Shown here: in pieces, positions 1 to 61,727 of the stretch
Layout: each line of letters opens with the position of its first letter
Position numbering within the stretch: the first letter of the stretch is position 1
Source of the DNA: Planoprotostelium fungivorum
Lineage: Eukaryota; Evosea; Variosea; Cavosteliida; Cavosteliaceae
Direction: 5' to 3'
NCBI GenBank assembly: GCA_003024175.1
Contig: MDYQ01000079.1
Coordinates: forward strand, 49,637-113,636
DNA: 64,000 nt
Program-made: the position numbers and the translations under genes
Notes under the pieces: model-generated
What the model was told of the DNA's origin: nothing
The model's input: the letters and a program-made list of their open reading frames with translations, nothing else
The model's database searches: none

Positions 1-1617
1 GAAAACTCAATATGACACATTCGAAATACGATCAACATGAAGATCGAATGATCAAGTGGGTGATCATCCATCACCCACCCCCTTGACCGAGGCTTCAGGT
101 GTCTTACAAGTGAATTGGAACACTTCATGAAGGAAAAATCGACAGAAAAAGCTGGCGATCTCTCCGTTGTCAGTGTCTACTTTGGAGGAGGCACACCCTC
201 TCTCGCGCGGCCCAAAATGGTCGGAGACATCTTGTCCACCGTCAAACGGCATGCCAACATGACATCCGATGTCGAGATCACATTGGAGGCCAACCCAAAG
301 GTGATCCGATGCAGTTGCATCATCTCGCCACCTTCGATCATCGAATCACGTTTCAGGTCATCAATTCTCATCTCACGTAGGATTGCCTCACGTCTCATTC
401 ATTAGAAGATTTCAAGACGGAAGGCATCAACCGTGTCTCTCTCGGCGTCCAATCCATCATCGATGATGATCTCAAACACCTCGGTCGCTTTCACTCTTCT
501 CAAGAGGTGAAATTCCACTGAAATCTCGCGACTGACACCATCAGTCTAGAGAAGCCATCGATACGTGTCAAAAATTGTTCGACAGCGTCAGCGTGGATCT
601 TATCTGTGGCAGACACCAGCAGAAGCCTTCTCAGTGGAGAGAAGAATTGAGACAAGTGTTGGATCTCCACTGTGACCACCTATCCATCTACAACTTGACG
701 ATCGAAAAAGGCACAAAATACGATCGAATGAAGCAAGAAGGAAAACGTGAGCCATCGTGCATGATGCATCACGACTGATCGTCAAGTCTCATTACCCGAC
801 GAAAATGAGTCACTCGAGATGTATAGAGACAGCCGCAGTATCTGCCAAGAGTTTGGACTGAAGCAGTACGAGGTCAGCAGTTACGGCCGCGACGGACACC
901 GATCCAAGTGATGATATCAGTCGTGATATCTCTGACGGTAAAGGCACAACTTGCACTATTGGAAGGGAGGGAGTTACATTGGAATTGGACCGGGAGCGTG
1001 TGGTAGATGGATCGACACAAGTGGAGAAGTCTACGAGATGAAACAAGTGAGACACCTTCACGATCATCATCCATCGCATGTCGTCATCATCATGATCATC
1101 ATTCTTCGCTGTGTCGTGATGGTGACCCGTGATCACGAGTCATCGTCATCATCATCAAAAGTCTTCACGAGCTGTCTATCTCCATCTTACCATTCCAACG
1201 ATACAAACGATCTCAAACAACAACAGATGAAACATCCAACCCAATGGATGAAGTCAGTCGAGTCCATTGGACACGGAACACAAGACAGAATTCGATTAGA
1301 ACCTTCCGAAATCATACAAGAATACATTCTATTCAACATGAGAAAAGTGATTTAAATCCGTCTACAACGAGACGAAAGACTGACGACGAGAAGGTGGAGG
1401 GAATCAAGAGGAGAGAGTTTGAAGAGAGATTTAAGAGGGAATTGAAAGACGTCTTTGGTGTGATGACAGAGGCCATGAGGGAAGAAGGTGAGGGAGAGGA
1501 TAGAAGAGGAACTGAAAGGGGGTAGGACTTATCGTTGTGGATGAAGAAGGTGTGAGGGCGACAGATAGAGGGAGGGAAGTGTTGGATGCCATCATGGACA
1601 GGATAAAGATCTCATGA
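1..1617 (+). CDS. RSAD1: RSAD1/HemW-like radical SAM protein (5' partial, multi-exon)
   Basis: This is the 3' part of a coproporphyrinogen-III-oxidase-like radical SAM protein of the HemN/HemW/RSAD1 family. HemW-type members act as haem chaperones, often mitochondrial, rather than true oxidases. Spliced exons give SVYFGGGTPSL and EITLEANP (about 175-300), then INRVSLGVQS (about 410-507). Next come VSVDLICG and CDHLSIYNLTIEKGT (about 550-749), and HNLHYWKGGSYIGIGPGACG (about 945-1010). A C-terminal winged-helix-like tail ends in GVGLIVVDEEGVRATDRG with TGA at 1615-1617. Six or so introns of roughly 35-110 nt are needed to keep frame. The cluster-binding CxxxCxxC region should lie upstream of base 1 and is not visible, so oxidase or chaperone activity cannot be judged. 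The first coding exon seen starts near 111. Family assignment is secure; the orthologue name is likely. Confidence 0.88.
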
Positions 1618-5131: not shown

Positions 5132-5489
5132 GGTGGCTGATGTGTGTGAAGTTGAATTCAGACGGCAGTAGACCAAAATCTAAATATAGTCTCATGATTT
5201 TTTAAAAAGAAAAGAAAGATGGCTTCGTTGTAGATGATCAATATATTAGCCCAAATGTAACGGAAACTTGTTCTGATTGATGCCTTTGTGAAGCTTGGAG
5301 ATAGAGGCCCAATATCTATTCTATCAACATAGCATTGGAGTACATACGGTCAAATAGACGAAGAGATGAGAAGTATGTCTTACGACTGGAGTTTTCAATG
5401 CACATCAGATCTTATGAAAGTTTCGATCTCATCAGTCCCCTTGCGCTGGTCAGACATACGCATCTCATCACCTTCGAAATTGCATGTAT
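5132..5489. other. Intergenic spacer between RSPH4/6 and tRNA-Phe
   Basis: No coding exon recognised. AT-rich stretch next to the RSPH4/6 start (about 5180-5250), containing one copy of the CGTTGTAGAT half-motif at about 5226-5235. The second half lies directly upstream of the tRNA gene. Confidence 0.6.
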
Positions 5490-8165: not shown

Positions 8166-11100
8166 CTATACTTCCAGCATCATCTTCACCTCTTTCGTAT
8201 CAGCCAAAGTCGTATACTCGTAACCTCTCGGGTTGTTTTCCTCCCAAAGAGGTCTCATCATCTGTCTCTGTCTGCGGTTGTGCTCGACAAACGATTGAAC
8301 CATGAAGAGGTGTCGCTTGAACATGTCGTTGCTGGCCAGAACAGCTGGAGCGTAAGCAGCTGTCTCCTGCAAAACTCTCGAAGCAGTGGCTTCTAAGATA
8401 TGCGGCTCTTGAAGATGAGACGATGATGGTTCGTATCGATTTAGAGGAGGCGCATGACGGTGTTGTTGATCCGAGAGATTCGAAGTCTCTCGATTGGACG
8501 TGGAGGTTGACGTGAAGTGAGCGAGCTCATCTGAAGAAGCGTTAGACTCATGCAACGATGGAACGTTACCTAATGAGAGTGGAGCCACGAGGCCACGAGG
8601 GGAAACCTGAACGTAACTCTCTTCTCTCTTCTCCATCGTAGAAGTGGGTCTATAGTGTGATGATGAGGGAGCCGATCGATCAATGTGGAATGAAGATGAT
8701 GGATGATGCTGATACGGCACTTCCATCGATGACCTCATCGCCTCAGTATGTCTTCCACTCTCTACAAATCGTAACAGAGGAGAAGGCATCAGACTGGGCA
8801 TCGACGTCAATTGCCGCGGCACCGCCGCGATACCTGCTGACGTCACCCAGTTGCAGTGACATCATCCCCTCACTCTTTATGGAGCCTATGGCCAAGCTGA
8901 GCGATGCAGACTGGGCCTCTCTCAATTGTGCGAGTTGTAGTTCGATCCGTTTGATGCCCTCGGTGAGAGAATCGACGTTGCTACGGTAACCGTCCAGGTC
9001 TTTGGACCGCTGGTTCATCTCTTCGTTTAGATCTCTGTTGGAGAGAAAGGGAAGAGAAGTCAAGCCTGGTTGGATTAGGAGGGACGCGATGAAGATGGAA
9101 GATGATGTCGCACTCGATGATGTGGAGTAGGACGAGTCTGTCGTGAGGGAGTTGTCTGAATCGAATGACTCTTGGAGTCTGTCTCTCCTCGGTGTCTTCT
9201 CTTTCTCTCCTCTCTTCTGTATCTTCTCTTTCTCTCCTCTCTCCTCTTCTCTCTTTTCTCGTCTCTCTTCTTTTTCCTTCTTTTGTACCTTCTGTACCTT
9301 CTTCTCTTCTCTTCCTCTCTCCTTGTTCTCCTTTCCTTTGCCAATCTGTTTCTTCTCCTCTTTTAACGGTGTGGACTGGATAGGCTTTGGAGTGACACCC
9401 TTCTTGACGTTCACGATAGGTTTTGAAGGTGTGACGTGTTTTGAGGGTGTGATGGGTTTAGGTGGGACCTTTGTCGGTGTCTTTTTCGGTGTCGCCTTCT
9501 TCTGTGGCTTCTTTGGTGAAGGCTCTTCATCGATCGATTCCTGACGGACGTCATCAGCTCACATCGACATGATGTTGTGATGGTCACCTCTTCGAAATCG
9601 TCAGAAACATCTACTTCTTCTTCTTCAAACTCTTCTTCGTACTCTTCCGACACCTCTCCATTCGATTCCGAACCTTCCACAGACTCTTCTTCGTATCCCT
9701 CCTCTACAGGCTCTTCAGACTCTTCAGAAGAATCTTCCTCTTCTGCAATGGACTTTTCCTCGATTGACTGAGAGGATGTGAATCACGTGTGACATCATTG
9801 TCTCCACCTCTTCTTGGACGGATTCTTCTTCAAAGTTTTCCTCCACAGCTTCTGTGTAGTGTCAGGTGTGAAAGGGGATGGTGCATCGTGTCGAGATGAA
9901 TGATGTACGACCTTCACTCTCTTCGCCCTCCTCCTCTACTTCTTTACTGTCTTCCTCCTCTTGGCTCTCCTCTTCTTCTTCCTCTTCTTCACTCTCTTCT
10001 TCTTCACTCTCTTCTTCTTCGCTCTCTTCTTCTTCACTTTCCTCTTCTTCACTCTCTTCCTCCGTCTCTTCTTCACTGCTCTCCCTCTCCTCCTTCTTCA
10101 CCGCCCGGCTGCTCTTCACCTCCCTCACCAACTCTCTCAGGACTTCCTCTATCTCTATCCTCTTCTTCTTCTCTTCCTCTAGCTCTTCCATCCTCTTCTT
10201 TTCCTTCTCCTTCCTTCTCCTTCTCCTCTTCTCTCGTCTCTCGTGTCTCCTCCTCCTCTTCCTCTCTCTTCTCATCTTTTCTTCTCTATCGCGCTCGTGT
10301 CTCTTGTCTTCGTCTACCTCTCTCACCACCTCTTTGATGGCGTCATCACACATTATAATTCGTCATGATGACGTCACACCTCTTCTAGGGTATAAGAAGT
10401 AGCCGCCCGAGTAGGAGAAGGGTTGAGGAGCCTCGGGGTGGGTGGAGAGTGTAGCGAGGGGATCGTCGGTCATAGTACCGGTGGTGCAGGATGTCTTTGT
10501 CAGCTCGGGTGGAAGTGTGTCGTTTCTCTCTCTCTGTGTCGCCTCTCCTACTTGGTGTTATGATGTGTTGCGTGTGCTCTTTCATATGCATTGTGTGATG
10601 TAATATCAGGTGAAGCAGTGAGATATATGATGCATGTGATGTGACGTATGTGATGTATATTATGATGTGATGTAATGTGATGTATGTTATGTGGTGTATG
10701 TTATGTGATGTATGTTATGTGATGTATGTAATGAGATGCAATCCACTGCTCACCCATGGTAGTGTGCTGGTTCTTCGGAACCTCTTGGAAGACTTCAAGA
10801 TGAGTTGAGGTGGGCTTGTCGGTCAAGACTTGAGACGCCAAGCTGAGAAGTGATGCGGTCGACTGATGAACGGAACTAGTGGACATCCTACGGGCAGGAG
10901 TATCTGATGGAGTCACCTCTGCTGGTGTTTCTGGTCAACATCAGTCGATGATCGTGATGTCGATGAGAGTGTCTCTCGTAGAGATCGCGCTCATGTTCAC
11001 CAGGACATTACCTTTATCATCTGGTTCACTCGCTTCCGAAGAGAATAGATTTACGTCACCCCCGGAAGCTCTGATTACTATCACCATGGATCTTCCTGGA

Positions 11101-15045: not shown

Positions 15046-17083
15046 ATGGAAGACAACACCAATCCTGCAGCATCTGAGAGTAAGAAGTTCACCTTCAAAT
15101 TATGGAGCGCTAATGATGACAAAAAGAGGGTGAGAATTCTGTTTGTTGAACACAAGATTATCTTCAGATACATCAGATGGAAGAGGTTGTGAGACTCACT
15201 GAATTGATTAGCGACACGTTGCCAAGTTTTCGGAGAGTGAAGAGATAGTTGATATGACAAAATGGGCTAAACCTGTGACGATGAATTTCGAAGTGGGTCT
15301 CATCTAATTATTTTATGCAAACGATTAAATGTACAATTGCAGGTTCTGAATGATAAAGGACAAGCACCAGTCATGCCCAACCTACCTCTGGACAAAGCCA
15401 AAATGATTCGTCGCAGAAGAATGGAACAATTCTACAAGGTGATGTCTCATCCCTTCATTCATTCTAACATATCTTCCAGAAAGTGAGTATCTTCCAACGA
15501 TCATTCTCCCATGACATTTTCACAGAGAACAGAAGCCAAACTCCAACAAGAGAAGGGCAACACGGTGAGTCATCTCCATCATAGTACACATGTACATCCG
15601 ACTCACGACGACAGATCGATAGAAAATGGCATTTAGAAGACGGTTCACAGTCCAACGCTTTCATCGGCACTCCCGAGATGGGTCAGACATCTCACTACGC
15701 CCTCTTCATGATGGACGTAAGTCATCGTCACCTGCTCTCATCTCATCTTCTCTCTTTAGGATAAAGGTTTTCAAGTCTTTCCAGTGGATGAATGGTACAA
15801 ATTTGACAAGAGACCTCATCATGTGCAGAGTAACAAGACAAGCGCGGAAGAGGCCGAATCAGCGGTGGGTCGATTCACTTCCACCCAACGTGTAGTCAAC
15901 ACGTCGCGATCGCGATCATCGCGATGCATCATCATGGCAATCCGACGTCGCGATCACCTCCATCGTCCACGTCTGACTCCTTCCAGCTGTACAACCGAGA
16001 GCACAAGTTGAACCAGAGACTGTCCAAGATGATCAAAGTCGAAGTGAAGAAGGAAGAAGATCGCGAAGACCCCGAAGACAATGTGGAAGAGTTTTCCATT
16101 CTGGGTCGCATGGACAGATCGAAGAAGAAGGCGATGAAGAGTCAGATCAAAACAGAAGAGAATGAGGACGTGAGTCATCTTACACAAGTCAGATCTGACT
16201 CGTTGTAGATCGACAACGCAGACGAGGACGATCACTTTGACAAGGAAGAGAAGGAAGAGGCACCCGATCTGGGAGAGGATCAGGTGGGCGTCTACAGCGT
16301 TGTAGATGGCTGATAAATCAGGCGAATGGTTTCTCCGACGATGAAGGTATTCAGATCGAGGAGGAGCCGGAGGAAGACAAGACGGCAGCTGATGAAGAAC
16401 CGAAAGAGCTGAACGACTACGGTAAAGAAGTGGTCAGGCTGCAGAAGGAGCACAAGGATGAAATGGAAGAAGACGTCGGTTCGGAGGAAGAGGTGGGGTC
16501 ATCGTCATCACACGTGCCATCTATATCATCATCATCGACATCATCACGTCCTTCATCATGAACATCAACAACTATCATCAATATCATCAACATCATCAAT
16601 ATCGTCAACATCATCAACACATCTGACAAACCAAAGGAAGAAGAAGAGTCCGACGCAGAAGATGAAGAAGACGAAGACCCCAACGCCGCCCGAGCCCTCA
16701 GAAGGCCAGTCAAGCGTGCAAAGACATCGCAGCCACAAGAGGACGTCACTCAGAGAAGTATCGCCCCCAGCGCCGCCCCCACCGGTGACATCACCGAAGA
16801 GGAAGTGAGCATCTACAACGTTGTAGACGGACGTCTGACTCGTTGTAGATACGCAGAGCCCTGCTTGGGGCGGGTAAGATAGGGGCGCAGCAGCTGCTGA
16901 ATAAATTCAAGAAGAGGCTGGTGGATGGTCCGACGAAGGTGGGGAGAGGTGGAGGTTGAGAGGTGACACGTGCAGGCGAGGTTCGCTGGCATGGTAAAGA
17001 AGCTGAGTCAGACGGTGGAGGAACATGCAGGGAAGTTCATCATGTTGAAGGATGAGTACAGAGGAGGACTCAAAGTCAAGTAG
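15046..17083 (+). CDS. GTF2F1: TFIIF alpha subunit (RAP74)
   Basis: TFIIF-alpha pairs with RAP30 to load RNA polymerase II at promoters and to stimulate elongation. The ATG at 15046 gives MEDNTNPAASESKKFTFKLW. The N-terminal dimerisation region includes HVAKFSESEEIVDMTKWAKP, IDRKWHLEDGSQSNAFIGTP, YALFMMDDKGFQVFPVDEWY and LYNREHKLNQRLSKMIK. The typical FSILGRMDRS motif follows. The centre is strongly acidic (GIQIEEEPEEDK, EEEESDAEDEEDEDPN). The C-terminal winged helix reads ITEEEIRRALLGAGKIGAQQ, LLNKFKKRL and FAGMVKKLSQTVEEHAGKF. About ten introns; two carry the ATCTACAACG palindrome. The stop is TAG at 17081-17083. Length and order of regions fit GTF2F1 well. Confidence 0.9.
16290..16307. repeat. 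Intronic short palindrome (TCTACA-GCGT-TGTAGA)
   Basis: A copy of the recurrent intronic inverted repeat with 6-bp arms and a 4-base centre, inside a TFIIF-alpha intron. See the finding on this motif family. Confidence 0.7.
16810..16829. repeat. Intronic short palindrome (CATCTACAACGTTGTAGACG)
   Basis: An almost perfect 20-bp palindrome immediately after the donor site of a TFIIF-alpha intron. The same intron ends with another half copy (CGTTGTAGAT at about 16841-16850) at its acceptor. Confidence 0.8.
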
Positions 17084-24353: not shown

Positions 24354-26760
24354 ATGAACTGGACCTCATACATCACGTTGAGTCTACTGGCTACGGGTAT
24401 ATCTCTCTCCAGCATATACATCAACTCGCATGACATCAGGTCATTCAAAGCACAGCTGAGGAACTCCTCCCTGGCCATAGTGGTCAGTATTGACGTCGGG
24501 AGAATTCTTGATTGATCTGTAATAGTTGATAGCCAACACATTGTTCATAGCCCTCTTTGGATTATGGAAGACCATACAATTGATCGTGTTCGGTCAACTT
24601 CGCGATATAGAAGCCAAGGTGATATATTCACGAAGAATATACGTGAAGAGAGGGTTAATGGAGTGCAGAATGTGTATGATAGATTGTTACAGTGGGCAGT
24701 TCTAAAGTTCCTCTTCGTCACGGCAATGAATAGCACCGACGCGACGCAAGATACCATCTTTTGGGTTATATGGTTTACTTTCATCGGTTTCATCAAGTCC
24801 TTCTCGCTTCTATCCAGAGACCGTCTAGAATACGTGAGCCGTCCACTTGATCCGTGGAGAAGATGATTTACATTTTCAAATCAGATCACGACATTCAACC
24901 CCTCTACGCGGCCATTGGCTCATGCGAAGATCGTCATCCTTCTCTTCCTCATCTTGGCCTGTGGTGAGTTCCCCCCACTTGAACCCATTCATTCTAATGA
25001 TCTCAGACACTTATGCATCTTATTTCTGCCTCGTCACATTTAGACAGAAGGGCATACCTCTCATCATGCTTCTCACCTTCGAGGTGAACGACTCGTCTCC
25101 CAATCATCATCATCATCCATCCCATATCACACATACACAATGCAGATCTCGTCGATCATCTAACTCATGCAGTGCATCGCTCTCTTTCTAGACACCATCC
25201 AGACTCTCGTGAAGTATGGAATCCACATCGTTGACATCTCGACGTCTCAGACCTGGGAGTCACGAGGCGCTTGGATCTACTACACTGAATTTCTCACCGA
25301 CACACTCATCCTTGTTCTCACCCTGGGTCATTACATTCAGTTCTTCCTGCATCACGGCATACACGTGACGTTGATCGATGGTATACTCTTCCTCTATATG
25401 AAGAACGTGGCAACCAATCTGAGGTGATGACGACGATCTGATGATGACATGATGATCTGATGATTATGTGATGGTCGTATGATCCGATGATGATCATCAT
25501 GATACGATGACTGATGTCTTCAGATTGAAGATCAATACCTACAGAAACTACAGAAAACTGGCGGCAGACATGAAAGAGAAGTACCCAGACGTTCCTTCTG
25601 AAGAATTAGCCCAATTAGACGACGTCTGTGCCGTGTGTCACGATCGCATGCTGACTGCCAAGCGACTTCCCTGCTCCCACATATTCCACCAGTACGTAAC
25701 TCGAATTCTCGTCGAAATCTCCACCACTCACCCCCACAGCTCGTGCTTGCGATCTTGGCTCGAAAACCACCACAACTGTCCCACTTGTAGATATTCTCTC
25801 ATCGATAATGTACCTGCCCCCAACGGCAGCAACCAAGTCAGTGCCAGGCCAGACGAACAGCCGAGAGAGGGTAGAGAGGAATTGTTCCGATTCAGTGAGT
25901 TTTCAAAAATCGCGTTGTAGATTGAACGTCCCAGATGGTCCCAGGTGGAGCAGCTGGTTGCCTTCGATACAGATCGTATCGGAGAGGAGACACGTACATC
26001 CTGGCAACAGGGTGGTCCCCGGAGGTCAAGTGGCTGTGCCCGTTCAACTCATGCAGCAAGTGCAAGAGATATTTCCTCACTTACCGTTGAGAGTCATCGC
26101 TGAAGACTTATCTCACACGATGTCGGTCGAGGTAAGTGTTCCATCTTTTCATCATCACGATGTGATCATCGTCATCATCGACATCATGATGATCATGACA
26201 CTCTTTAGACGACGATCAACAATTTCGTCGAGGGAAGATATCCCCCGAGTTACTATCAGATCGAGAGGGAGACCGCTCAACAGCAGCAAGCCGCCGCCGC
26301 ACAGGCACAGGCAACACACAATGCATCCACCACTACAACAGCTCAGAATAATTTGGGAAGCACACAGAAGAATCGATTGATGGAAGAGATGATGAAGGAG
26401 AAGGAGAAGGAGGGCGGCGAGGCACAGATGCCTTCGGTCAGCAGCACGCAGTTTGGAGATACGTTCTTCAGCACGTCGCAGCAGAGACAGCAGAGTCTCG
26501 CAGAGAGGAGAAAGAAGATGTTAGAACACGCAAGAAGGTGGGTCAACACATCATCATCACATCACCATCATCACATCATCACATCATCATCACCATCATC
26601 ACATTATCATCACATCATCATCACATCATCATCACCATCATCACACAATAGACCAAACTGACCCCTCCATAGAGAATACGTCGAGAGAGAACACAAGAAG
26701 CTCCACGAGGGAGGAACCACTCCCCCCACACCAAATTCAGAAGACAAAAAGACAAACTAA
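24354..26760 (+). CDS. AMFR: AMFR/gp78-like ER membrane RING-CUE E3 ubiquitin ligase
   Basis: gp78 sits in the ER membrane and ubiquitinates misfolded or regulated proteins for ERAD. The ATG at 24354 gives MNWTSYITLSLLATGISLSS, the first of several membrane segments. Others are TLFIALFGLWKTIQLIVFGQ, FWVIWFTFIGFIKSF, IVILLFLILAC and LILVLTLGHYIQFFLHHGIH. An amphipathic stretch (LKINTYRNYRKLAADM) leads to the RING: CAVCHDRMLTAKRLPCSHIF, then H-x2-C and CPTC (C3H2C3). A CUE-type ubiquitin-binding domain follows (VQEIFPHLPLRVIAEDLSHT, NNFVEGRYP). The tail is Gln/Ala-rich and basic (RRKKMLEHARR) and ends in DKKTN. The order TM-RING-CUE separates it from HRD1, which lacks CUE. The TAA is at 26758-26760, only 10 bp from the RUVBL1 stop. 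Confidence 0.87.
26535..26655. repeat. ATC/CATCACA low-complexity repeat in an AMFR intron
   Basis: CATCATCACATCACC-type words fill this intron near the 3' end of the AMFR-like gene. Confidence 0.85.
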
Positions 26761-26770: not shown

Positions 26771-28902
<2,132 letters not shown>

Positions 28903-30702: not shown

Positions 30703-33426
<2,724 letters not shown>

Positions 33427-34309: not shown

Positions 34310-34668
34310 TATTAAGAATATAAACCGATCTGATTTCACTCTCCATCTTAAAGTGGACGTTGATGCGAGTCTACAGTCTGCAAGCTTGCACGTCATGTTT
34401 TGCGTCCTTCATCGCGCACGCCGCAGATGAGGTCTACTGTGCTGCTGACGGTGTTGAGCTTATATGAAATGGTATGTTGAAGTGTCCTCATGCATCACGG
34501 CGGGACGTGATGGGCTCACCACTCGATTTAACCAGCTTCACCTTAATCTACAACGAATATGTCAGAATAGTTTTTGAAGAGAAGTTGTCACCCGCTGTCA
34601 TACTGGAAACCCACCACGAAGAGTTGAGAAGTTGAGTTTCACTCGTCGATCATTCTCCAAACGACAAC
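34310..34668. other. Intergenic spacer between ARL6 and the chitosanase gene
   Basis: No exon recognised. One ATCTACAACGAATA half-motif lies at about 34547-34560. The last 100 bp are promoter and leader of the chitosanase-like gene. Confidence 0.55.
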
Positions 34669-36354
34669 ATGAGCGTCAGAACTCTCTGTCTCTTCCTTGG
34701 ACTCTTCCTTCTGGTCGGATCGGCCATCGCACAGAACTGCGGATGTGAAGGATCGGAATGTTGCAGCCAATGGGGGTGAATGAACTTGTCATTGTTTGCA
34801 TCGACTCAACCTCTTTAGATATTGTGGATCTACCGCTGACTACTGTCAAAACGGTGCGACTTCACATCCATCAGATACACCTCACATACCGGACTTGAGC
34901 CTCTTCTGATCTTTCTATAGGCTGCCGTGAGAACTGTTGGGGATCAACTTCCACCTCCGGAGGTTCTTCATCCTCTTCCACTGGTAACAGTGACGACAAG
35001 GGAACCGTCGAGAAGGGAGATCGTGCCGGCAGCGACATCGAAACCACATCTGCATCTTCAGCTCAAGACTGTCAATCCAAATGCTTCGATAACTCGGCCT
35101 GTGGAGCTTGGGCTTTCGATTCGTGTGGAAAGAGGTGAGAAGTGATGATCTTGGAACGACCTCTGATGGAGTTCATCAGCAAGTGCTGGTTGAAGAGTGG
35201 ATCGCCCAAGAGAAACGCCACCATCAGCTGCAGACAGTCTGGACTCATCAAGAGATCATCCAGCTCGTCCTCCGGCTCTTCTTCTGGCTCCTCCACTGGC
35301 TCTTCCACTTCTGGCTTTACTTCGGGAAGCACCTCCGGCAACGGTGGAAACGGTAATGACCTCATCCTCCATATCACATCTGTGTCAACGTCCGTCACCT
35401 CTTCTCACCTCTTTACAGGCGTCCAGACCTCTTGCCAGAAGGAGATGAGTTTCCGTATCACCTCCATCTACGAGAACTCCACCCCGGACCTTCAATACTG
35501 CTTCTGCTCGTGGCAGAACGACAAGCACGGTATCACAGGTGAGCACCCCTCCATCACATCGATCGCATTCCATCCATCTCATCCTCTTTCTCATTCTCTT
35601 TCTCAGCCGGTTTCCCTGGCTTCACCACTCGCGACGGTGACGCCCTCGAGTTCTTAGAGAAATATCAAAAGGACAACGGAGACAACTCTTTCACCTCCCT
35701 CATGGGGGCCGTCAGAGCCGCAAAGGGCACGAACAACAACATCAACGGCTACTGCAACGCATGGAAGAAGGAGTGCCCGCTGGATCGTTTCAAGAGAGCC
35801 GAAGTTGCTTACGTGGACGTCAACTACTACGGAAACTCACAGACGGTGATGAGATGATGTCGCTGATGGCATGCTGAAGTGAGACAGGTGGCCAAGCAGT
35901 ACGGTATCACTTCTCCCCTCGTTCAGGCTCTGGTGAGTCCCAAAATTCACAAATAAATCGAGATAAAATACTGACCGCCACCCAGTTCTACGACACGAAC
36001 ATCATGCAAGGAGACGGAGGCAGCACTTACGATCTATCCGGTATCGCCAAGTGGACCAAGCAGCAGATGGGCACCCCAGACTCTTCCTCTGCTTCTCAAC
36101 TCGCTTGGGGCAAGAAGTTCTTAGACAGAAGATCCTGGGTGTTCCAAAACAGTCCAGAGGGTGGCTGGGAGGACTGCCAATACAGGTGACACACTCTCTC
36201 TCATGGCAATGATGGCTGAACGAGAGACAGAATCAACTCTTGGAAATACATTCTGAACAACAACGACGCCTCCATGCCTGGTACCTCCACGAAGATCTTA
36301 GAGAACGGAGGACAGCCCATGACCATCCGCTGCACCGGTGACGGCTTCAACTAA
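34669..36354 (+). CDS. Secreted hevein-tagged chitosanase (GH46-like)
   Basis: MSVRTLCLFLGLFLLVGSAI is a signal peptide. NCGCEGSECCSQWGYCGSTA with YCQNGC and NC is a type-1 chitin-binding (hevein) domain whose eight Cys are spread over three short exons. A second Cys-rich piece, SAQDCQSKCFDNSACGAWAF, then DSCGKRCWLKSG, looks like a PAN/apple module. A Ser/Gly/Thr-rich linker (about 35245-35355) leads to the catalytic part. This has MSFRITSIYENSTPDLQYCF, CSWQNDKHGITAGFPGFTTR, DGDALEFLEKY, VAYVDVNYYGNSQ, QYGITSPLVQALFYDTNI and VFQNSPEGGWEDCQYRI. The YEN ... D-x-H-G-I-T-A-G-F pattern matches GH46-type chitosanases, in which a Glu and an Asp catalyse hydrolysis of chitosan. The exact GH family (46, or a related lysozyme-like one) needs a profile search. 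The TAA is at 36352-36354. Confidence 0.82.
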
Positions 36355-38321: not shown

Positions 38322-38759
38322 ATGCCCAAGGACAACGACACGAAGGCCTTAGCTTCCTTCCACCCCGAATCCCTGTTCGACTTCAGGGACATCTACTCAC
38401 CCTTCTTAGCTCTCCAGACCCTCAAGCCTTTCTTAGAAGACAAACAGAGGAGAGCCTTCCCCGGCATCCAGAAGACTGACGACGGCTACCTCATCGAGGC
38501 TGAGATGGCGGGAGTCCCGAAAGAGAACGTGTCGGTGGAGGTCAAGGATGGCTTGCTTCTCATCAGCGGCAAGCAGAAGATGGAAGAAGAGAAGGACGGA
38601 AGGAAGATGTACAGCCGCAGCGACTTCTACCAGTCCGTCAGACTTCCCAAAGATGCAGATCATGAGAGCGTCAAGGCGAGCTACGTGGATGGACTGCTTA
38701 AAATCCACATGAAGGGAACAGAGTGCAAGGATAACACGAAGAGGATTACCATCGAGTAA
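38322..38759 (+). CDS. Small heat shock protein (HSP20/alpha-crystallin family)
   Basis: An intronless 145-residue protein in an intron-rich window. It opens MPKDNDTKALASFHPESLFD. The alpha-crystallin domain runs from about residue 50: FPGIQKTDDGYLIEAEMAGV, PKENVSVEVKDGLLLISGKQ, SDFYQSVRLPKDADHESVKA and SYVDGLLKIHMKG. It ends with KRITIE, a C-terminal I-x-I/V-like motif that docks neighbouring subunits in sHSP oligomers. The A-x-Y-x-D-G-L-L core motif is conserved. Such proteins hold unfolding clients in an ATP-independent way during stress. Lack of introns is common for heat-induced genes, since splicing fails in heat. Confidence 0.95.
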   Translation: MPKDNDTKALASFHPESLFDFRDIYSPFLALQTLKPFLEDKQRRAFPGIQKTDDGYLIEAEMAGVPKENVSVEVKDGLLLISGKQKMEEEKDGRKMYSRSDFYQSVRLPKDADHESVKASYVDGLLKIHMKGTECKDNTKRITIE

Positions 38760-38964
38760 GGAGGCTGTACGAAGAGAAATAAAAGATAACTCTGAAACTG
38801 TGGCCTTGTGTCTTCTACTGATCCTGATTGGACGGTAAACTCTAACGGTGTTCGTGATGCAATCGTGTTCACAAATTCAGCGTACAGACGTCTATGTGGA
38901 GGAAGTCGGTTGTAGATGAATAATCAAAACCATTTCGCGATTACACATCACATCGGTCGATGAC

Positions 38965-41900
38965 ATGAGCGCAGCCTCGACATTGAAGGAAGATGGTATG
39001 AATACGATTCTATTACGAGAGCCTGACGAGATTTTAAGAAGAACAAGAGGAATCATTCGAGATTGAAGACAATGAAGATTTGAGCAGTGATTCCCTCAGC
39101 GCGACATTGAGAGATGTCCTGTTATTGGATACGTCCAGCTCGATGATCACTGCTTCTGGTCTAGAATTGCGTCTGCCCAGGCTCGTCAATCGACTGGCAG
39201 AATCAAAGGTATGTATTGGTTTCTCTAATCTGATGCTCTGACGAGAAGGATTTGCATCGTTCGATCGTAACACTCATATGATGCAGTCGAAATACTTTGA
39301 AGAGATGTCGCCTGTCGTATCAGAGATAGAGAAATATAAAGACACGGCGGAAGACATACAGAGACGCGCGCAGTCATTAGAAGAGAGAACCGACATCATC
39401 AAGAACAAATTTGACAATCCAGAGGTAATCATCATCACGAGAGACACGAATCATTGAAGAGATCCATTTCAGGACGGAATCAAATTACGTCTACTGTCTG
39501 TAGATGATAATCTGAGAGACGTTCAAGATCAGATGGAGTCGACTCAGAACGTCATCGACACACTCCAACACATGAGAAAGTTCTCAGAGGTGATGTCAGA
39601 TCACGATCGAGCGATGAGCGATGGAGATTGGAAGAAAGCTGCAACCTCTTACCGATGCATGGTGACGTGTCTCCATCTCTCGAGATGATGCCGACATCGA
39701 TCAGATCGCGGCCTTCGATGAAGTACCCGAGCGATTGCGAGATCGATCAGACGTGATCATCTTCCATCAGATGAAAGTGAGATCGTCCATCCTCTTGACA
39801 AATGTTTCCGTTCGAACGTGAGACAAGTGAATGACTCGACCGCAGGAGACTCTGTCGCAGAGAAAATCGGTTTTAAAATCGAAATTAAATTCACTGTGGA
39901 AGAGGTCCATCAAGATAGAGCCACACAGTCTCACCTTGTCTGACGAGGGTGAAGAGAAAATTGTTCGCGTCGATTGACATCTGAAATAGAGATCGATCTG
40001 GACGATCTGGTGCTGTGTTTGAACAATTATGATGTGGAATACCTCCGTGGAAAACTGGCGGAATTCTCATCGAACTTGATGACGCAGATATTGGAGCCGA
40101 TCTTGAGCGTTGTAGATCATGAGATACGGGTGGAAGACAAGGAGAATATCACTCTGATCCAATTCATCACGAAGGAGGGAGACAAGGTACGAATCATACA
40201 ATCACACATCAGTCATCATGTCACCACATCATGTACTTACATCATGTCATTACATCACATCATCACATCACATCATCACATCACATCATCACATCACATC
40301 ACATCATCACATCACATCATCACATCACATCATCACATCACAATACGACCACATCGATCCACGAGATTACAACATCACGATCCCATCAAGTCGAAACGAA
40401 TACACCCCACACGATCACACATCCAACGCTGAACGAAAAAAAGATTGAAAAAAAGACAAAAAACAAGAACAGAGCCGAATCCTTCACTCCAAACGACTGT
40501 GAGACACTTGCATTAGAAAAACTGACGCACAACAGTCACAACTGATCTGAAGCACATCGAAAGAGTTCTCACTCGCATCTACGCCAAGTTGAGAGACGAT
40601 GACGAGACGATGAGGAAGATCATGAGTGGACTGTGGGACCCTCTATCCACGTCCATTCTCTTTCGTCTGCACTCGATTCAATCGGACCTCCTCGAAGAGC
40701 TGGAGGCTATACCGGGTAGCGTCGGAGAATTAGACAGACAGATGAGAGATATGGGTGAAATTTCGGTGAAATTCCACGGCTGACGAATCAGGCTGCGGAG
40801 AATTCGGAGGTCTGTCTAATGTGGTGGGTGATGTACAAATCCTTTATGATTCAAAGAAGAGAGTTCAACTACTGGAGAAGACAAGAGAAGCAGCACTGAC
40901 CGACGATCACACGTTACTTACCGTGAGTCGTCTCGTTCGAAATTTCACCTTACGTTCGAAAAGGTGTCGGCCGTGGAATCGATTGTAGATCTACTCCACA
41001 CAGAAGAAGGCGACACTTCACCCTTTTGCATCGGTGCGAGAGAGACTTCCAATTCCACCGTTTCGAAGAGGTTCTCCTCTTTCATCACCCTCTTACGCTC
41101 CTCCCTCGATCGAGCCACGACTGGTCCCCCCGAGAGGTGTGATGACGTCATCACACGTCATCGTGACGTCATCACAGGTTCTCGAACGCATACGAGGCCG
41201 TGAGAAGTGCCATCGACCTCTATGTCTCTGTCGTTCCAACGGAGACACTTGTTCCTTCTTTAGGGATGGTGTTTGTCAACGAGTGCAACTGTCTCGCCTT
41301 CGTCTTACCTCTGTTGGCGGTGCTGTGCAGATTGAGGCGAGTTGTAGATGGTGGAGGGTCTGACGGGTGAATAGTTTACCCGAGACACTGTCGGAGGGGG
41401 TCAGCTTGGTGGATTATGTTCCTATTTTTAGAAACATGGCCGACAGACAATTGTCCGCTCAGCTCGTGAGGCCTCCCTCGACTATTTTAAGAACCAGACT
41501 GAACGAAAGGACAGGAGAGACAGAAGCATGTCTTATTACAAGTGTTCGATGGATGGTCCGGCCTGGCAGACACACACGACCCTTCTTCTTTCAATTCGGT
41601 AAAGAAGACGATACAGAGACTCCTGCACGAATTAGAATTGCTGTCTAAACTGTGGAAGGTGGGAGGGTGGGAAGGGTGGAACTGAATGGAGCAGGAGATC
41701 TGTACGGGACCGTTGTATCTGTTTTTGATGGGGAATATGGTCGATGCCGTATTGGAGCGTTTCACCAAAGAGGTGATCTCATCGTTTCATTTTATCATCA
41801 TGACGATCATCCACATCATCGACATCATCTACACATGAATATCATCATCTACACAAGAAACATCATCAACATCATCTCACAACATCCATCCGATCAATTC

Positions 41901-43597: not shown

Positions 43598-45532
43598 ATG
43601 AGCGGCAAGAGGGCTTTGTTACGCAGGTTGAGGATGAAAAACAATGCACCACTCTCACCACAACATGGCGGACCACAACATACGAATCCGATCATGTATG
43701 GCCAATCTGCCCCATCATACTATGCACCACCCACCATTCCATACATGAACCACCCTATCAACATGCCTCATAATTATAACCTGAACCCGTATGGTTATTC
43801 ATACGGGCATTCTGCAATGCTGCCTCCACCCATGTCTTATCCCATCACCACTTCTTCTATATCTCCTTCTGGAGGTGAGCCATTCTCGGCCCATTTTAGA
43901 CCTCCGATTGATCACATTGAAGATTCGGCCAACCAACCGGCGCCGAACAACGACCCACAGAATCTTAAAGCGATAGAAGACTACATTGTGAGTCTCCTCA
44001 ATGGTGGAGCCAAGATATCAGAGCCAGAATCGAGACCAGTCGAACCCACTAATCAAGAAGAGATTCGCAAGTTAGAGTCGACGGTCGAGGCAGAACACAA
44101 TTTAGAACCTCCACCGGTGAGTTCATCATCGCATCACATAATCACATAGCGTAGGAGTCAGTCAAGCCGAAGCGAAACCTCAAAAACCTTCCCAAAAAGA
44201 CGACGCCCATCATAACAGACCCTCAATCTTTCATTCAACTCACCGGTGACTGTCCATCTTCACATATCATCTCACTCTGCTCAGATGAATGTGTCGCCCT
44301 CTTTAACGAATTGAAGCCCATCGCTGGTGAATATGCACGCAGGATGAAAGTACTCAAGAGGCTCAACAAATTGATTTACAATTATTTCTCTGGTGTGCAT
44401 CTTTCCTGATCGATGGAAGATCTGAAGACATCAGATGGTAAGCCACAGCTCCATTTGTTTGGGTCTTCTGCCAACAATTTTGGCATGAAGAACGCAGACA
44501 TGGACATTAGTCTTGTCATCGACGAGAAGCATGTGGGCTCTCCCAAGAGAATCGTCTTACGATTGGGAGACATTTTAAAGAGGAGTGAGTCCGACATCTC
44601 TCCTCCATCATCTCCATCATCATCATCGTCTAAACGTCCACAGAGAGGATGTTAGAAGTCGTCTGTCTTCCCAGAGCCAGAGTTCCCATTGTTAAATTCA
44701 AAGACGAGTTCTCCGAGCTGTCATGCGACATCTGCATCAACAACACCCTGGCCATACACAACACTCAACTCATTTCCACTTACTCCAAGTGAGCTCCATC
44801 TACAACGCTGTAGATTGCCGAATCCATTTTCTCACAATATCTCACAGGATCGACATACGAGCGAGACAGTTGGGCTACGTCATCAAGCATTGGGCCAAGT
44901 GCAGACAGATCAACGAACCCTATCAGGGCACCCTGTCCTCTTACGCTTGGATTGTCATGGCCTTGCACTATCTACAGACGCGAAATCCTCCCATCCTTCC
45001 TGTCTTACAAAACATGACTGCCCCGGGCGAAGAGAGGAAGAAGGTAGAAGTAGAAGGTCACGATGTTTATTTCTACTCCAATTGGGACTCTCTGAGAGAG
45101 TTTGGGACTCCGAACACGAGCAGCCTGGGGGAGCTGGTGACTGGCTTCTTTCGGTTGTATGCGGAAGAGTTTGATTGGAACGACTCGGTGGTGTCTCTTA
45201 GGACTGGTGATTCGAAAGACATGTAGTCTCATCTTCTCATGATGGGCAGGCGGTTACTTGACCAAAGAGGAGAAGCAGTGGGCCAAGCAGACCAACGACA
45301 GAGACAACATCTTGCTCACGATAGAGGACCCCTTCGAAGTGACGCACAATCTGGGGCGTCTGGTGGACAGAAGTAACTTGAAGGTGAAGAAGATGAGTCG
45401 GTGATGGCTGAACGAGAGGAGGTCATCAAGTACGAGTTCAAGAGGGCTTACAAACTGGCCGCCAGCGGCAAGCCTCTATCGAAGATTTGTGAGGAGTATG
45501 TAGCAGATACCAAGGAGGGCCAAACACAATGA
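43598..45532 (+). CDS. Cid1/TENT-type non-canonical nucleotidyltransferase
   Basis: Template-independent poly(A)/poly(U) transferases of this family tail RNAs. The ATG at 43598 gives MSGKRALLRRLRMKNNAPLS. A long Pro/Tyr/Ser-rich low-complexity region follows (to about 44110). The pol-beta-like palm has LHLFGSSANNFGMKNADMDI, with the G-S motif and the D-x-D metal ligands. LEVVCLPRARVPIVKFKDE and SCDICINNTLAIHNTQLIS complete it. The central domain has IDIRARQLGYVIKHWAKCRQ, INEPYQGTLSSYAWIVMALH and YLQTRNPPILPVLQ. The PAP-associated domain reads LGELVTGFFRLYAEEFDW and LLTIEDPFEVTHNLGR. The third catalytic Asp is expected in the VKFKDE region. No RNA-binding domain is evident beyond the disordered N-terminus. 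Nucleotide preference (A or U) cannot be read by eye. The TGA is at 45530-45532. Confidence 0.88.
44797..44816. repeat. Intronic short palindrome (CATCTACAACGCTGTAGAT)
   Basis: A 19-bp copy inside an intron of the nucleotidyltransferase gene. It is identical base for base to the copy at 59027-59045 in the aminopeptidase gene. Confidence 0.85.
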
Positions 45533-48799: not shown

Positions 48800-50078
48800 A
48801 TGAGTCATGCACTATCATACGGATCAGAGAAGGAGTCTCTTTTGAAATCATACATCCCCATTTCAGTCAACACAGAAGAGACGCCTTCTGATGGAGAGAA
48901 GAAGATCAGACGTTTCAGTTGCCGTCTGTCGGATCTCGCGGTATGTCTAACTACGATCAACGTGTGTCCTGAAAAATCAACAACAGTCTTGGGAGAATCT
49001 GTGGAAGGCGATCTTGGGAGAATTCATAGGAACATTCATCATGATGTATGTTGGCCTGGTACGTACATGGATGGTATTTGATGTATGACCGAGATCTGAT
49101 GTTATAATGCAGGGCGCCATCTTGGCACAAGACGAACTACTCTACGTCGCACTCACTTGGTCTCTCATCATGCCCGTTCTCATTTCCATCTTTGGAAAGA
49201 TCAGTCAAGCCCTCTTCAACCCCGCCGTGAGTCATCCCATCATCCACTCTTCTCATCAAAGACAGATCACCGTCGTCTTCTGGCTATTAGAAGACATCAC
49301 CCTCCTCCAGGCCATCTTCTCTGTCTTCGCCCAACTGTTGGGAAGCGCCGCCGCTTCTGCTCTTCAGTTGCAGCTGTGGCCGCTGGGTGAGCCAACCCAG
49401 ACTTTTATTTCAATTTATTCACGATGTGCCAGACACGAGGAAACCTTATTACGACGGTTGCACCTTCAACGTGCCGATAGGAGACAAGTCTGGCACTCAA
49501 AGAGGTCTCATCAATGAGGTGAAACTCTCATCGTGTGCATCTCTTAACGCGTGAAAGGTGGTGACGACGTGCATATTAGTCTTCCTACTCTTGTCTCTCA
49601 CCCACAGGGGCCCCACTGCCGAACTACAACACCCTCAGACGCTTTTAGTGGCCATGGCAGTGGGTGAGCTGAATCACTTCGTCATCACATTGACGGCTCA
49701 TCATCGCATCATCACACCATCACATCATTGTATTTCCTCTCATCACCATCAACTCGTCAGTTCATCCACGATCGAGACGAGACGATCGCGATGACGATGT
49801 TGACGATCGATCAGGTGCCACCATCTTCTGCATGGTGATGGTAGGTGCCCCCATATCCGGCGCCAGCGTGAGTCACCACACTCCATCTACAACCCGCCAT
49901 TTCTCACCTCCCTCAGCTCAACCCGGCCCGAAGTTTCGGTCCCTCCCTCGTCGCAAATTATTGGGACGACCACTGGGTATTCTGGGCCGGCCCAATTATT
50001 GGTGCCCTCCTCGGGATGTCCATCTGGTACACCTTTGTCAGGAAGGTCTACATCACAGAGGAGAAGAAGGACTCCTAA
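48800..50078 (+). CDS. Aquaporin / major intrinsic protein
   Basis: A membrane channel for water and possibly small solutes. The ATG at 48800 gives [20 protein letters not shown], a cytosolic N-terminus. Helix 1 starts [20 protein letters not shown]. Helix 2 is [20 protein letters not shown]. The first half-helix box reads ALFNPAI, so the NPA motif is intact. Helix 3 contains [20 protein letters not shown]. Helix 4 has [18 protein letters not shown] and helix 5 has [18 protein letters not shown]. The second box is [20 protein letters not shown] (NPA-R intact), and helix 6 has [20 protein letters not shown]. The residue after the second NPA is Arg, as in all MIPs. FGPS after NPAR and the short spacing favour a water-type aquaporin over an aquaglyceroporin. 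About six introns. The stop is at 50076-50078. Confidence 0.92.
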
Positions 50079-53664: not shown

Positions 53665-53737
53665 GGGGATCTAGCTCAAATGGTAGAGCACTCGCTTAGC
53701 ATGCGAGGGGCACAGGGATCGATACCCTGGTTCTCCA
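53665..53737 (+). tRNA. tRNA-Ala (AGC)
   Basis: Cloverleaf by eye. The acceptor GGGGATC pairs with GTTCTCC, discriminator A. It has the G3-U70 pair that marks alanine and one T6-T67 mismatch. The D stem is GCTC/GAGC. The anticodon stem CTCGC/GCGAG holds loop TTAGCAT with anticodon AGC. The T stem is CAGGG/CCCTG with loop ATCGATA. No intron and no encoded CCA. Confidence 0.92.
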
Positions 53738-56693: not shown

Positions 56694-59600
56694 ATGCCGA
56701 GATCTCATTACGTTCAACAAACAAATCAGATCACGACGACAGAGGGAATCGAAAAAGATACAGGAGCGGGCGATACATTCGACAGAAATCTGCTGCCGAA
56801 AAATGTTCGCCCGCTTCGCTATGATCTCCATCTGGTGCCCAACATGCAGAAATCAACGTTTGCGGGATATCTCACTGTGACCATACAGATCTTGGAGCAA
56901 GTCGATTGCATCACGCTACATTGTATCGATCTTTCGGTTTGTTTTCCGTCCATCATCATAGACTCATGCGTCGAGCAGATCTCCTCCATATTACTCATCG
57001 CAAACAACGGAAAGATCGAGGCATGCGATTTGGTGGCTGACGCAGATACGGAGACGGTCAGCATATTCTTCGATTACCAATTAGAGGTGATCCTTACGTC
57101 GGAACATCACATAGTTATTCAAATAGGCTGGCGTCTTTCAGTTAGATATACGATACGAAGGGTTATTGAACACGAAGATGATGGGTTTTTACATTTCTCA
57201 CTATGTCACCAACGGTGCGATCTATAGTGTCGCTGTCACACAGATGGCTCCCACATCGGCAAGAAAGGTATCACGTTTCATCCATCACGAAAGAAGAGAA
57301 CCGAAACACTCCTTCACTTTAGAAATTGAACGAACGACAGGTCTTTCCGTGTTGGGATGAACCAGACATCAAAGCCATCTTCTGCATCACACTGACCGTC
57401 AGAAACAATCTAACCGCCCTCTCTAACATGGACTGCATCTCTCGCTCGGATGGTATTCTCACATCGTCCCCATCATCAGATCGTATCATCGAGATGAGAT
57501 GTCTGACACGAAACAGCCGGAGATGGACACGTGACTCTACACTTTGAACCGACACCCTTGATGTCTACTTATCTTGTGGCCGTTGTTGTTGGAAACTTGG
57601 AATACATGGAAGCGAGGACAACAGCCGGTGTGAGGGTGAGACTCTTCACTCCCATCGGCAGGAGAGATTCGGCAAAGTTTTCCCTCGAGTGTACCGGTGA
57701 GACTATTGTTCATCTTTAAGATGATCATCACATCGATCATCACATCGATCATCATCACATCGATCATCTGTGCATCGATCACCTGTGCATCGATCACCTC
57801 TCACCGATCGTCTCCTCATCGATCATCATCGTGTGTTCTTCTTCACACTTGAATTGCTGCGAGTATGATTGAGAACGAAAACACATGCATGTCGATGGAA
57901 GAACGAAACGGGGGACTGAAATCGATGCAGTGAAGATTTTGGATTATTTCAGTGAATATTACGGGATCGCTTACCCTCTGCCCAAATTAGATAGTGTGGC
58001 AATAGCTGACATGGCATTTGGGGCTATGGAGTGAGAGATGATACTTTTGTCCATCGGTTCATCCACTCCATATGAACCACTCACATCATCACGTCTGATC
58101 ATGTCTGATCACATCTGATCGCATCTGATCGCATCTCATTTCACCTCATCAACTCCATCGTTTTCATGACATCTCCTCACATCATAAGCTTTCATCATAC
58201 CTCACTTGTCTTCTGCAATCAGAGCACATACCGACCTAAGACAGACACTGGGGCCTCATCACCTACCGTGATGGACTCCTCCTCTTCGATCCAAAAGTCT
58301 CCAACACTTCTTCCAAGCTCCACTGCATCTCCACCGTGGCCCACGAACGTAAATTTCATCCACATCCACGCGAATTTTCTGACCGTAATACGAACAGTGG
58401 CCCACCAGTGGTTCGGTAATTTAGTTACGATGAAGGTGAAGTGAAGTGATGAGAGTGAAAATGAACGGAGACAGTGGTGGAAGGAGATCTGGCTGAACGA
58501 AGGATTCGCCACGTTCGCTGGAACACAGGCTGTAGATCATCTCTTTCCGGAGTGGCAGCCTTGGGTCAGTTTCGTCACGCACTATTTCAATACGGTGAGT
58601 CCATTCAGTTGCAATGAGATCGATGTAGAGGATGGATGATGATCGATCATTTATTCATTTATTAAAATAATCGATTCATCTACGCGATCATGTCATCACG
58701 TGATGAAAGATCATTTTAAAGTGTTTTATTTCTCAACGAAACGATTCAGGCACAGATACTCGATGGCTTAGAGAATTCACATCCAGTCGAAGTTGAAGTC
58801 GGAAGGCCAGAAGAAATCCACGAGATATTCGACGACATTTCATACAGTAAGGGTGCTTCTGTGAGTACCTCCACACGACAAAACGACGACAAATGGAGCA
58901 CGACGCTGATCGTTGTAGATCATTCGGATGCTGTCGGACCGTGTGGGGACGGACAATTTTCGAAGGGGCCTCAACCTCTACCTCAATCGATTTCGATATT
59001 CCAACGCGGTCACCCAGGTGATATCTCATCTACAACGCTGTAGATCGAACGTAACAGGACCTGTGGGATGCCATATCGGAGACGTGTGGAGAGGACGTGA
59101 AGAGCTTCATGGACCCGTACACTCTGAAGGCGGGTTATCCGCTGGTCACCGTTGAGACGACGCAAGAGAAGGGATTCTATCGGTTCACGCAGTCGCGCTT
59201 CGTTTCGTCGGGGAGAGAGGTGAGAGACGAGAATAAGATAAAATGTCATATAGATAAGGAGAGGATGAGATAGAGATAAGAATGATGAGATAAGAATAAT
59301 GAGATGAGAAGAATAAGATAGAGAGGATGAATAAGATAAGGATGATCAGATAAGAACGACAGGACGAGAAGAATAAGATAAGAATGATGAGATGAGGACA
59401 AGATAGAGATAACAACGATGATGATGCGGAACAAAGATTGAATAAGATCAGGATGAAGATGAAACAACGTGGAAGATCCAATTGAGCATCGTGACTGAGG
59501 GCTGTGAGCTTCCAGCGAGGTACGAACTGAGCGAGAGAGAGCAGACGATACACATCAGAGAGGTGATGATGATCGTTCTATAACTCCATCACTGAGGAGA

Positions 59601-61050: not shown

Positions 61051-61727
61051 TTGATACTTTTACAATTTATTAAACAGAGAGAACAGAGAGAGGAACCTGA
61101 GAAAATATCAATCGTCTTGATCGAGTGATCGATGGATGATATGTTTTGAAATAAGATCAGGTAACAGCCATTGTATCGTCACAGCGTCGCTAAGACGGTA
61201 ATTCCATAAAGAACATCATGTCAACATGATTGATAACGGATAGATCGGATTGTTTTGTCTCACCTTTCTCTTTCCTCTGCCTCGTTTGAATGGGTTCGGT
61301 TATGTTGTAGTCTCGTTGTAGATGTCGTGTCATTTTCTTCACCTTTTCCTACATCCTTTTTTTGTTCCGATGTTTTATAAGATTTGCAACCGAGACGTCT
61401 CTGATGATGCATCATTTAATCTAATCTTGGGGATGATGGTGGACTAGTGTAGGGTGATGGTGGACTGTTGACCTCCTTCGGTGAGACTTTCTCGATTCCA
61501 CCGAACCTCGGAGGTGGGTGCATCATCACGACGGCTGTGCCGTAGCTGCTTTTGGATCGCATTTTGTGGGTATCCATCTGAGTGGGTGAATAGCAGTGTA
61601 AATGGGGTGTGGTGTTTCCGTGGCTTGACAGGTGTGTTTCCAACTTCTCGCACACAAAGAGGACAAAGATCATCGAGTGAGCAAAGCTTGCAGACAATTC
61701 ACGGACTTGAACTCGTTTGAAACAGAC
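61051..61727. other. Intergenic region, 0.68 kb
   Basis: No exon recognised. One CTCGTTGTAGATG half-motif lies at about 61311-61323. The open frame on the minus strand (61416-61733) has no motif. Confidence 0.5.

Follow-up and report, generated by a model that had tools for sequence, protein, structure and literature searches.

Palindromic words in the short introns of Planoprotostelium fungivorum, their two intron slots and their position along genes

The introns of Planoprotostelium fungivorum carry a large set of palindromic words of several kinds that is mainly bound to introns, has a fixed architecture and follows a rule of position along the gene. The set was found through a window of 64,000 bp, the whole stretch of DNA analysed (bases 49,637–113,636 of contig 8), and was followed through the genome of 36.86 Mb in 471 contigs. 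The positional rule, by which the words are rare in the first few hundred coding bases, is a new finding beyond the earlier observation of the family. Neither chance nor a mobile element seems a likely source of the thousands of intronic words, which look like a selected signal carried by the introns. The best explanation, which is put forward tentatively, is that the palindrome and its halves are candidate sites of sequence-specific, probably dimeric, factors and are selected in very short introns far downstream in genes.

Abundance of the words and their concentration in introns

The half word ATCTACAACG is present 7,984 times (4,011 + 3,973) in the 36.9 Mb genome, compared to 62 times (35 + 27) for the reversed word used as a control, and the palindrome TCTACA-NCGN-TGTAGA is present 1,489 times compared to once. 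The sequence GATGACGTCATC has 993 copies genome-wide and 4 in its reversed form. In the window, which has a G+C content of 47.8% and genes with spliceosomal introns, there are 36 matches with up to one mismatch, against a mean of 3.94 and a maximum of 9 in shuffled sequence. The recurrent palindrome family described in the first-pass annotation is therefore present, and is more abundant than was claimed. All 19 of the places given for it (4 palindromes and 15 halves) hold the word or a half, with small mismatches and 0–3 bases off, and the copies at 44797 and 59027 do have 19 bp in common (CATCTACAACGCTGTAGAT). It is very improbable that chance, acting on base and splice-site composition, generates the words. 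The branch site CTGA is complementary to the acceptor TCAG, which favours some CTGA...TCAG palindromes; however, both genome-wide counts are far above those of the reversed-word controls, the window count is far above its shuffles, and for the main word chance is already refuted. No printed description of the word was found in a literature search that mostly lay outside subscription journals, so that its absence from the literature is not established.

Introns are those predicted by a self-written hidden-Markov gene finder that was trained on the data itself and has no motif term. Its splice models span 9 bases at the donor and 7 at the acceptor and admit GT-AG only, and introns emit as background. 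The annotated sample of 269 kb has 22 stretches: the window, 20 stretches of 10 kb chosen for palindromes and one of 5 kb not so chosen. It contains 1,072 predicted introns with a length mode of 40–44 nt, a donor consensus near AG/GTGAGT (the slash marking the splice junction) and the acceptor CAG. A presumed branch-site word, [CT]T[GA]A[CTA], is found in 688 introns, with its A 9–12 nt from the intron end in 434 of these. Boundaries were checked by homology for two window introns, 58861..58918 (+), which has an acceptor half, and 59018..59057 (+), which has a palindrome, both in the M1 aminopeptidase gene. Their boundaries are independently supported, since excision of the two leaves a product that aligns with puromycin-sensitive aminopeptidase over 93 residues without a gap (E 3e-28).

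Pfam identifies TFIIF-alpha, where the palindrome was first noticed, a poly(A)-polymerase-like nucleotidyltransferase, an M1 aminopeptidase and synaptobrevin among the window genes. The TFIIF-alpha identity rests on Pfam, because the predicted C-terminal part of the protein had no match in PDB; nor did its first 60 residues match anything in a Pfam scan. A search of Rfam at gathering score in 144 kb (the window and 8 of the 21 genome stretches) matched the words to no family and found only three tRNAs, located at 5490–5562 and 53665–53737 in the window and at 4612–4684 in L016.

The 8-letter core TCTACAAC or its complement is found 205 times in 72 kb of introns in the 269 kb sample (2.84/kb), 14 times in 38 kb of spacers (0.37/kb, from a small spacer sample) and 47 times in 159 kb of coding sequence (0.30/kb). 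Introns are thus 7.7 times denser in the half-word core than spacers and 9.6 times denser than exons, so that equal density in exons is not seen. Within the window, the exact 10-mer is found 12 times in introns, once in spacers and once in coding sequence. The location claimed earlier, in introns and spacers, holds for the introns, with 18 of the 19 places in predicted introns on the + strand; the spacer part comes down to the half at 5226..5235 (-), the density in spacers being about that in early introns. One exact half, at 40108, was absent from the earlier list and is inside predicted coding sequence.

The half copies of the window lie in introns of various sizes. Reverse halves are found in the predicted introns 1347..1378 (+), where TCTACAACGAG is at 1361, and 49868..49916 (+, 49 nt, TCTACAACCCGCCA), and there are two in the 66-nt intron 32933..32998 (+). 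Forward halves are found in the 40-nt intron 25895..25934 (+, CGTTGTAGAT) and the 50-nt intron 41325..41374 (+), with two in the 51-nt intron 32791..32841 (+). Three further introns are long predictions that are possibly model errors: 34392..34679 (+), with a reverse half at 34546, 38756..38969 (+), with a forward half at 38908, and 61198..61452 (+), with a forward half at 61314. The gene models of the first and last of these are probably fused.

When all 256 palindromic 8-mers were scored in introns against a second-order expectation, three stood out. CAACGTTG has 35 copies in introns (0.9 expected), 2 in spacers (0.7) and 1 in exons (2.6); GAAATTTC has 38 (2.2), 3 (1.4) and 12 (3.2); and TGACGTCA has 54 (5.0), 1 (0.97) and 9 (2.8). 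The latter two are also 3–4 times over expectation in predicted exons, which counts against the explanation favoured here. In the window, TGACGTCA, the second family, is present in the predicted introns 8834..8873 (-), 10314..10379 (-) and 27279..27321 (-), and twice in 41137..41177 (+). GAAATTTC, the third family, is present in 40755..40791 (+) and 40923..40963 (+). Letter for letter, TGACGTCA is the CREB/ATF-type bZIP consensus palindrome; here it is at expectation in spacers and enriched in introns. Composite intronic palindromes combine it with CACGTG, for example TGACGTCACGTGACGTCA. A milder intron excess is seen for TCACGTGA (23 against 8.7) and ATCGCGAT (14 against 3.1).

Architecture of the palindrome and its two intron slots

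The core of the main word is TCTACA-N-CG-N-TGTAGA, mostly preceded by A or G and followed by T or C. With gaps of up to 39 searched on both strands, 108 of 124 counts of the arms TCTACA/TGTAGA are at a gap of 4. Among 199 readings of an intronic arm with its CG, in which perfect palindromes are counted on both strands, the other arm is perfect in 97, has 1–2 mismatches in 5 and has at least 3 mismatches in 97. The fixed gap and the all-or-none state of the arms suggest a binding-site pattern rather than decay, and the core has the twofold symmetry and fixed spacing of a dimeric site.

The palindrome occupies a slot at the 5' end of introns. Allowing up to 3 mismatches, it starts 2–13 nt past the donor in 46 of 55 palindrome introns and stops 11 nt or more short of the intron end in 50 of the 55; in the remaining 5 it is itself the acceptor. 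Palindrome introns are no longer than word-free introns (median 43 compared to 47 nt). Four are present in the window. Two are in the TFIIF-alpha gene, where the 38-nt predicted intron 16284..16321 (+) has GTCTACAGCGTTGTAGAT 6 nt past the donor start and the 44-nt predicted intron 16805..16848 (+) has ATCTACAACGTTGTAGAC past the donor. The other two carry ATCTACAACGCTGTAGAT, one being the 59-nt predicted intron 44789..44847 (+) of the nucleotidyltransferase gene and the other the 40-nt homology-supported aminopeptidase intron 59018..59057.

A half of the palindrome occupies the second slot, at the 3' end. The half CGTTGTAG is the acceptor in 44 of the 1,072 introns and is written CGTTGTAG/A(T). 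In 19 of these 44 it takes the form GACTCGTTGTAG, which a branch-site-like TGAC overlaps or immediately precedes; TGACGTCATCAG (10) and GAAATTTCAG (5) are other intron ends. The first exon base past the acceptor half is A in 95% of 40 introns, compared to 35% of 391 word-free late introns, and the acceptor word therefore crosses the splice junction. That some half copies supply the acceptor of their own intron had been proposed before, and four window introns are predicted to end in this way. These are the 39-nt intron 16170..16208 (+) of TFIIF-alpha, where CTGACTCGTTGTAG/AT makes up branch site and acceptor, 16805..16848, which has the acceptor CTGACTCGTTGTAG/AT in addition to its palindrome, the 68-nt intron 27918..27985 (-), with the 3' end CTGACTCGTTGTAG, and the homology-supported 58-nt intron 58861..58918, with the 3' end CTGATCGTTGTAG/AT. 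The suggestion of a splicing-linked element stands in part, in that the word is largely intron-bound and one of its forms is the 3' splice site.

The suggestion of a hairpin that joins the donor and acceptor sides does not agree with this architecture, the palindrome being near the donor and well short of the intron end in most introns. There is also no preference for G-U over A-C type variants in the outer pair (14 against 10, p=0.54), and across the genome halves 100–130 bases apart are not preferentially opposed, with 12 convergent and 7 divergent pairs against 44 tandem pairs, some of the tandem counts stemming from local repeats. Pairing between neighbouring introns is rejected on the same genome-wide counts. 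Within the sample, neighbouring introns have 12 opposed against 4 same-direction pairs without acceptor halves and 19 against 9 with them, which is suggestive. No nucleosome-like periodicity of the sites was evident by eye.

Position along genes and the reading of the words

Introns with any of the three words are rare early in genes. In predicted genes starting with M, and with distance counted from that codon, such introns are 2 of 159 at 0–300 coding bases, compared to 80 of 216 at 900–1,800. By bin there are 12 of 133 at 300–600, 27 of 108 at 600–900, 31 of 89 at 900–1,200 and 49 of 127 at 1,200–1,800. In finer early bins there are 2 of 27 at 0–60, 0 of 45 at 60–150, 0 of 87 at 150–300, 5 of 73 at 300–450 and 7 of 60 at 450–600. 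Beyond 1,800 coding bases, where fused models mix genes, the fractions are 26 of 151 and then 25 of 98. Near the stop codon the words are also rarer, less markedly (7 of 88 introns at 150–300 bases against 156 of 648 beyond 600).

Each word shows the rule on its own. Between early (<450 coding bases, 232) and late (at least 600, 716) introns, main word A goes from 4 to 141 (p=2e-14), word B from 1 to 37 (p=4e-4) and word C from 4 to 43 (p=0.008); words B and C had no part in the choice of stretches. The acceptor CGTTGTAG is found in none of the early and 40 of the late introns. The window alone has the same sign for the main word, short of significance (1 of 52 early against 15 of 181 late, p=0.13), and for any word has 0 of 31 at 0–300, 6 of 74 at 300–900 and 16 of 143 beyond.

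Hairpins in general do not account for the words or for the positional rule. In short introns without the named words, stems of at least 7 are found in 10 of 333 late and 4 of 162 early introns, both near shuffles, and it is therefore the named words that make the early and late difference. A mild excess of stems of at least 6 (12% against 8–9% in shuffles) is seen in these word-free introns, early and late alike. The main word is spread unevenly over genes (p=0.006), and its share per gene goes with the share of the other two words (rho 0.44, p=0.002, 49 genes). Clustering per gene was rejected as a general trait, with p=0.30 for word B alone and p=0.82 for word C alone. Early introns have slightly enriched words of their own, such as ATTAAG/CTTAAT (8 of 212 against 1 of 626).

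At least three unrelated words (TCTACA-NCGN-TGTAGA, TGATGACGTCATCA and GAAATTTC) use two slots, one just after the donor and one at the branch site and acceptor. Since the three words use the same slots and avoid the first few hundred coding bases, the factors look interchangeable. Under the explanation favoured here, putative factors would bind introns at the level of double-stranded DNA and, once bound, might either mark them or slow the passage of RNA polymerase II, and introns of 40 nt that are far from the cap and promoter could then be recognised during transcription. A half word that ends in AG downstream of a branch site would double as the acceptor. The DNA reading, the dimeric protein, the polymerase pausing and the selection on all copies are each inferred. 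A stronger form may be stated more speculatively, and is on balance doubtful: a position-gated intron code, in which ultrashort introns more than a few hundred coding bases into a gene would need one of several unrelated, interchangeable dimer-type sites, the bound factors would pause polymerase II or mark the intron, and one half site would have become a class of 3' splice site that crosses the exon junction.

The orientation of the halves bears on whether the words are read in DNA or in RNA. Palindromes are symmetric by construction and were excluded as evidence on this point. Outside the acceptor slot there are 47 reverse and 41 forward non-palindromic halves, and near-equal orientations are expected if double-stranded DNA is read. 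The subclass of reverse halves TCTACAACNNGCCA, a half followed by NNGCCA (examples are at window 49885, L024 573, L015 3496 and L022 4328), is in sense in 14 of its 20 intronic copies (14 against 6, p=0.12), a lean that would suit an RNA reading. Such a reading is possible but unlikely. Under it, introns at a distance from the cap would need the words in their pre-mRNA, where these would either fold into short hairpins (AUCUACA-ACGU-UGUAGAU), bringing donor and branch site closer together, or be bound by RNA-binding proteins. It would agree with one form of the word serving as acceptor directly downstream of a branch site, and with the mild excess of six-base stems. The equal orientations speak against it, as do the equally common G-U and A-C variants, the hairpins of other sequence that are alike in early and late introns and the lack of favoured pairing between neighbouring halves.

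Intron length divides the two readings in the other direction. Main-word sites per kb of late introns fall from 6.6 at up to 60 nt to 0.38 at over 160 nt, which is the spacer level, in a comparison where the long predicted introns include model errors. DNA sites should populate long introns too, so this fall counts against the DNA-bound factors favoured here. The proportion of late introns that have the main word is steadier with rising length (22, 17, 10 and 8.5%), as though the intron were the unit, which suits the RNA reading.

Polymerase pausing is a mechanism by which CTCF acts in splicing regulation. If intragenic DNA-bound factors aid the recognition of splice units as proposed here, their working would be like that of CTCF, which the available part of PMC3794605 treats as a DNA-bound factor in splicing regulation. 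The difference, as far as that part of the source goes, is that there are three word families here with many thousands of sites in ultrashort introns, and the factor is putative. The words of intron-mediated enhancement, such as TTNGATYTG of Arabidopsis, are likewise short words enriched in introns according to gene position. In the accessible portions of PMC6760150 and PMC6374622 these belong to promoter-proximal introns in the first kilobase, whereas the palindromic words described here are missing from early introns, as counted from the predicted start codon. A function for the words would mean that introns of some 40 nt can depend on sequence-specific sites according to their position in the gene, a mirror image of intron-mediated enhancement. 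It would also offer a direct way to study how promoter distance influences the recognition of splice sites, and why some lineages have kept tiny introns at high density.

Paralogous introns and the mobile-element reading

Shared introns of related genes show that the acceptor form can be retained. Three acetylesterase-like genes (L012, L018 and L032, of which L018 has the Pfam SASA domain) are 48–59% identical, and one homologous intron ends in CGTTGTAG in all three while the remainder of the intron has diverged. Another of their introns has a palindrome in L018 (44 nt), has none in L032 (39 nt) and is missing in L012. In the related genes L016 and L025 (36% identity), one intron ends in AGTTGTAG in one and CGTTGTAG in the other, a near-match, and GATGACGTCATC is found in one intron of both.

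The paralog set is small, with 47 shared introns in 7 filtered pairs and the three esterases counted pairwise. On this basis the TTGTAG acceptor is in both partners at 4 shared introns and in one only at 3; by position, it is kept at 2 (one a near-match) and not kept at 2. Copies of the main word outside the acceptor slot are in both partners at none and in one only at 5 (5 intron pairs, 4 positions), which counts against the favoured explanation. For TGACGTCA, the corresponding counts are 1 and 1 outside the acceptor slot and 1 and 2 at the acceptor.

One gene family hints at a link between the word and intron gain, and speaks against reading the words as selected sites alone. The S53-type protease L019, which has a pro-kumamolisin domain, has 5 introns in about 200 residues with 4 exact words and 1 imperfect copy. 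Its paralogs L045, L046 and L047 have no introns in the stretch that matches these five, L044 has a single predicted intron of 286 nt at one of the five places, and L042 has the word in 4 of 6 introns, with 5 of the 6 at positions of its own. These genes are one reason to consider introners or MITEs as the source: short mobile elements bounded by the palindromes that would give rise to introns or insert into them, favour gene interiors and diverge rapidly outside the palindrome. It also fits that the word is present in 21 of 52 unshared against 23 of 94 shared intron instances (the paralog pairs overlap), and that late introns are more often followed by exon G when word-bearing (82 of 149) than when word-free (150 of 391, p=6e-4).

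Such an origin is nevertheless unlikely. No convincing target-site duplication was found for 49 palindromes with offsets of 0–4 and lengths of 3, 4, 5, 6 and 8 (25 combinations), the best combination giving 2 against 0.1 in permuted partners. An apparent 5-base duplication signal was due to overlapping copies, L030–L049 overlapping L018/L019, and 2 of 49 remain once these are removed. The 3' remainders of 36 palindrome introns have no common sequence above control (5-mer sharing of 0.211 against 0.207, sd 0.041, with 136 of 300 controls reaching this value), and in the bodies of 33 acceptor-half introns sharing is no higher than in controls. It is the lack of a convincing target duplication and of common flanks that makes a MITE or classical introner unlikely. 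The arms are either intact or random-like with few intermediates, palindrome introns are not longer than others, and the esterase intron exists with and without a palindrome. For a MITE, the copies in spacers are moreover sparse compared to those in introns, within the small spacer sample. The miniature mobile element that had been offered as one origin of the family is not supported on these points.

Known introners resemble these words in part. In the available text of Gozashti et al. 2022 (PMC9860276), introners are many short introns with common sequence throughout a genome, the similarity must extend near both intron ends, and inverted repeats are a trait of some families and target-site duplications are missing from some. 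As far as that text describes introners, the present case differs, since 8–18 nt are in common, the flanks are unrelated and a shared intron can be with or without the word. The introners of Amoebophrya are also a case of palindromic motifs in protist introns, and in the portion of Farhat et al. 2021 (PMC7789003) available they have inverted repeats of 8–20 nt that join the 5' and 3' ends of one intron, direct repeats at exon boundaries and mostly non-canonical introns. By comparison with that portion, the same few words are here inside one slot, and the introns are GT-AG, the gene finder admitting no others. If the words are remains of intron gain, the process that created the introns left only a palindromic core, and would fall outside present definitions of introners.

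A mutational origin, in which the word spreads without function by short-tract gene conversion or templated repair of palindromes, is improbable. Exact copies with dissimilar flanks are what such a process would give, but it leaves unexplained the gene-position rule common to three unrelated words, the fixed spacing and the acceptor half kept in three paralogs.

Among the S53-type genes, L046 (from 415) is without any intron, and L045 and L047 are intron-free in the aligned stretch. L044 and L045 are 99% identical over 2.2 kb and are in opposite orientation on one contig (C116:261270 and C116:274206). The receptor-like kinase segments (G000), a rich source for comparing paralogs, belong to a very large family, with at least 157 matches to a 78-residue piece.
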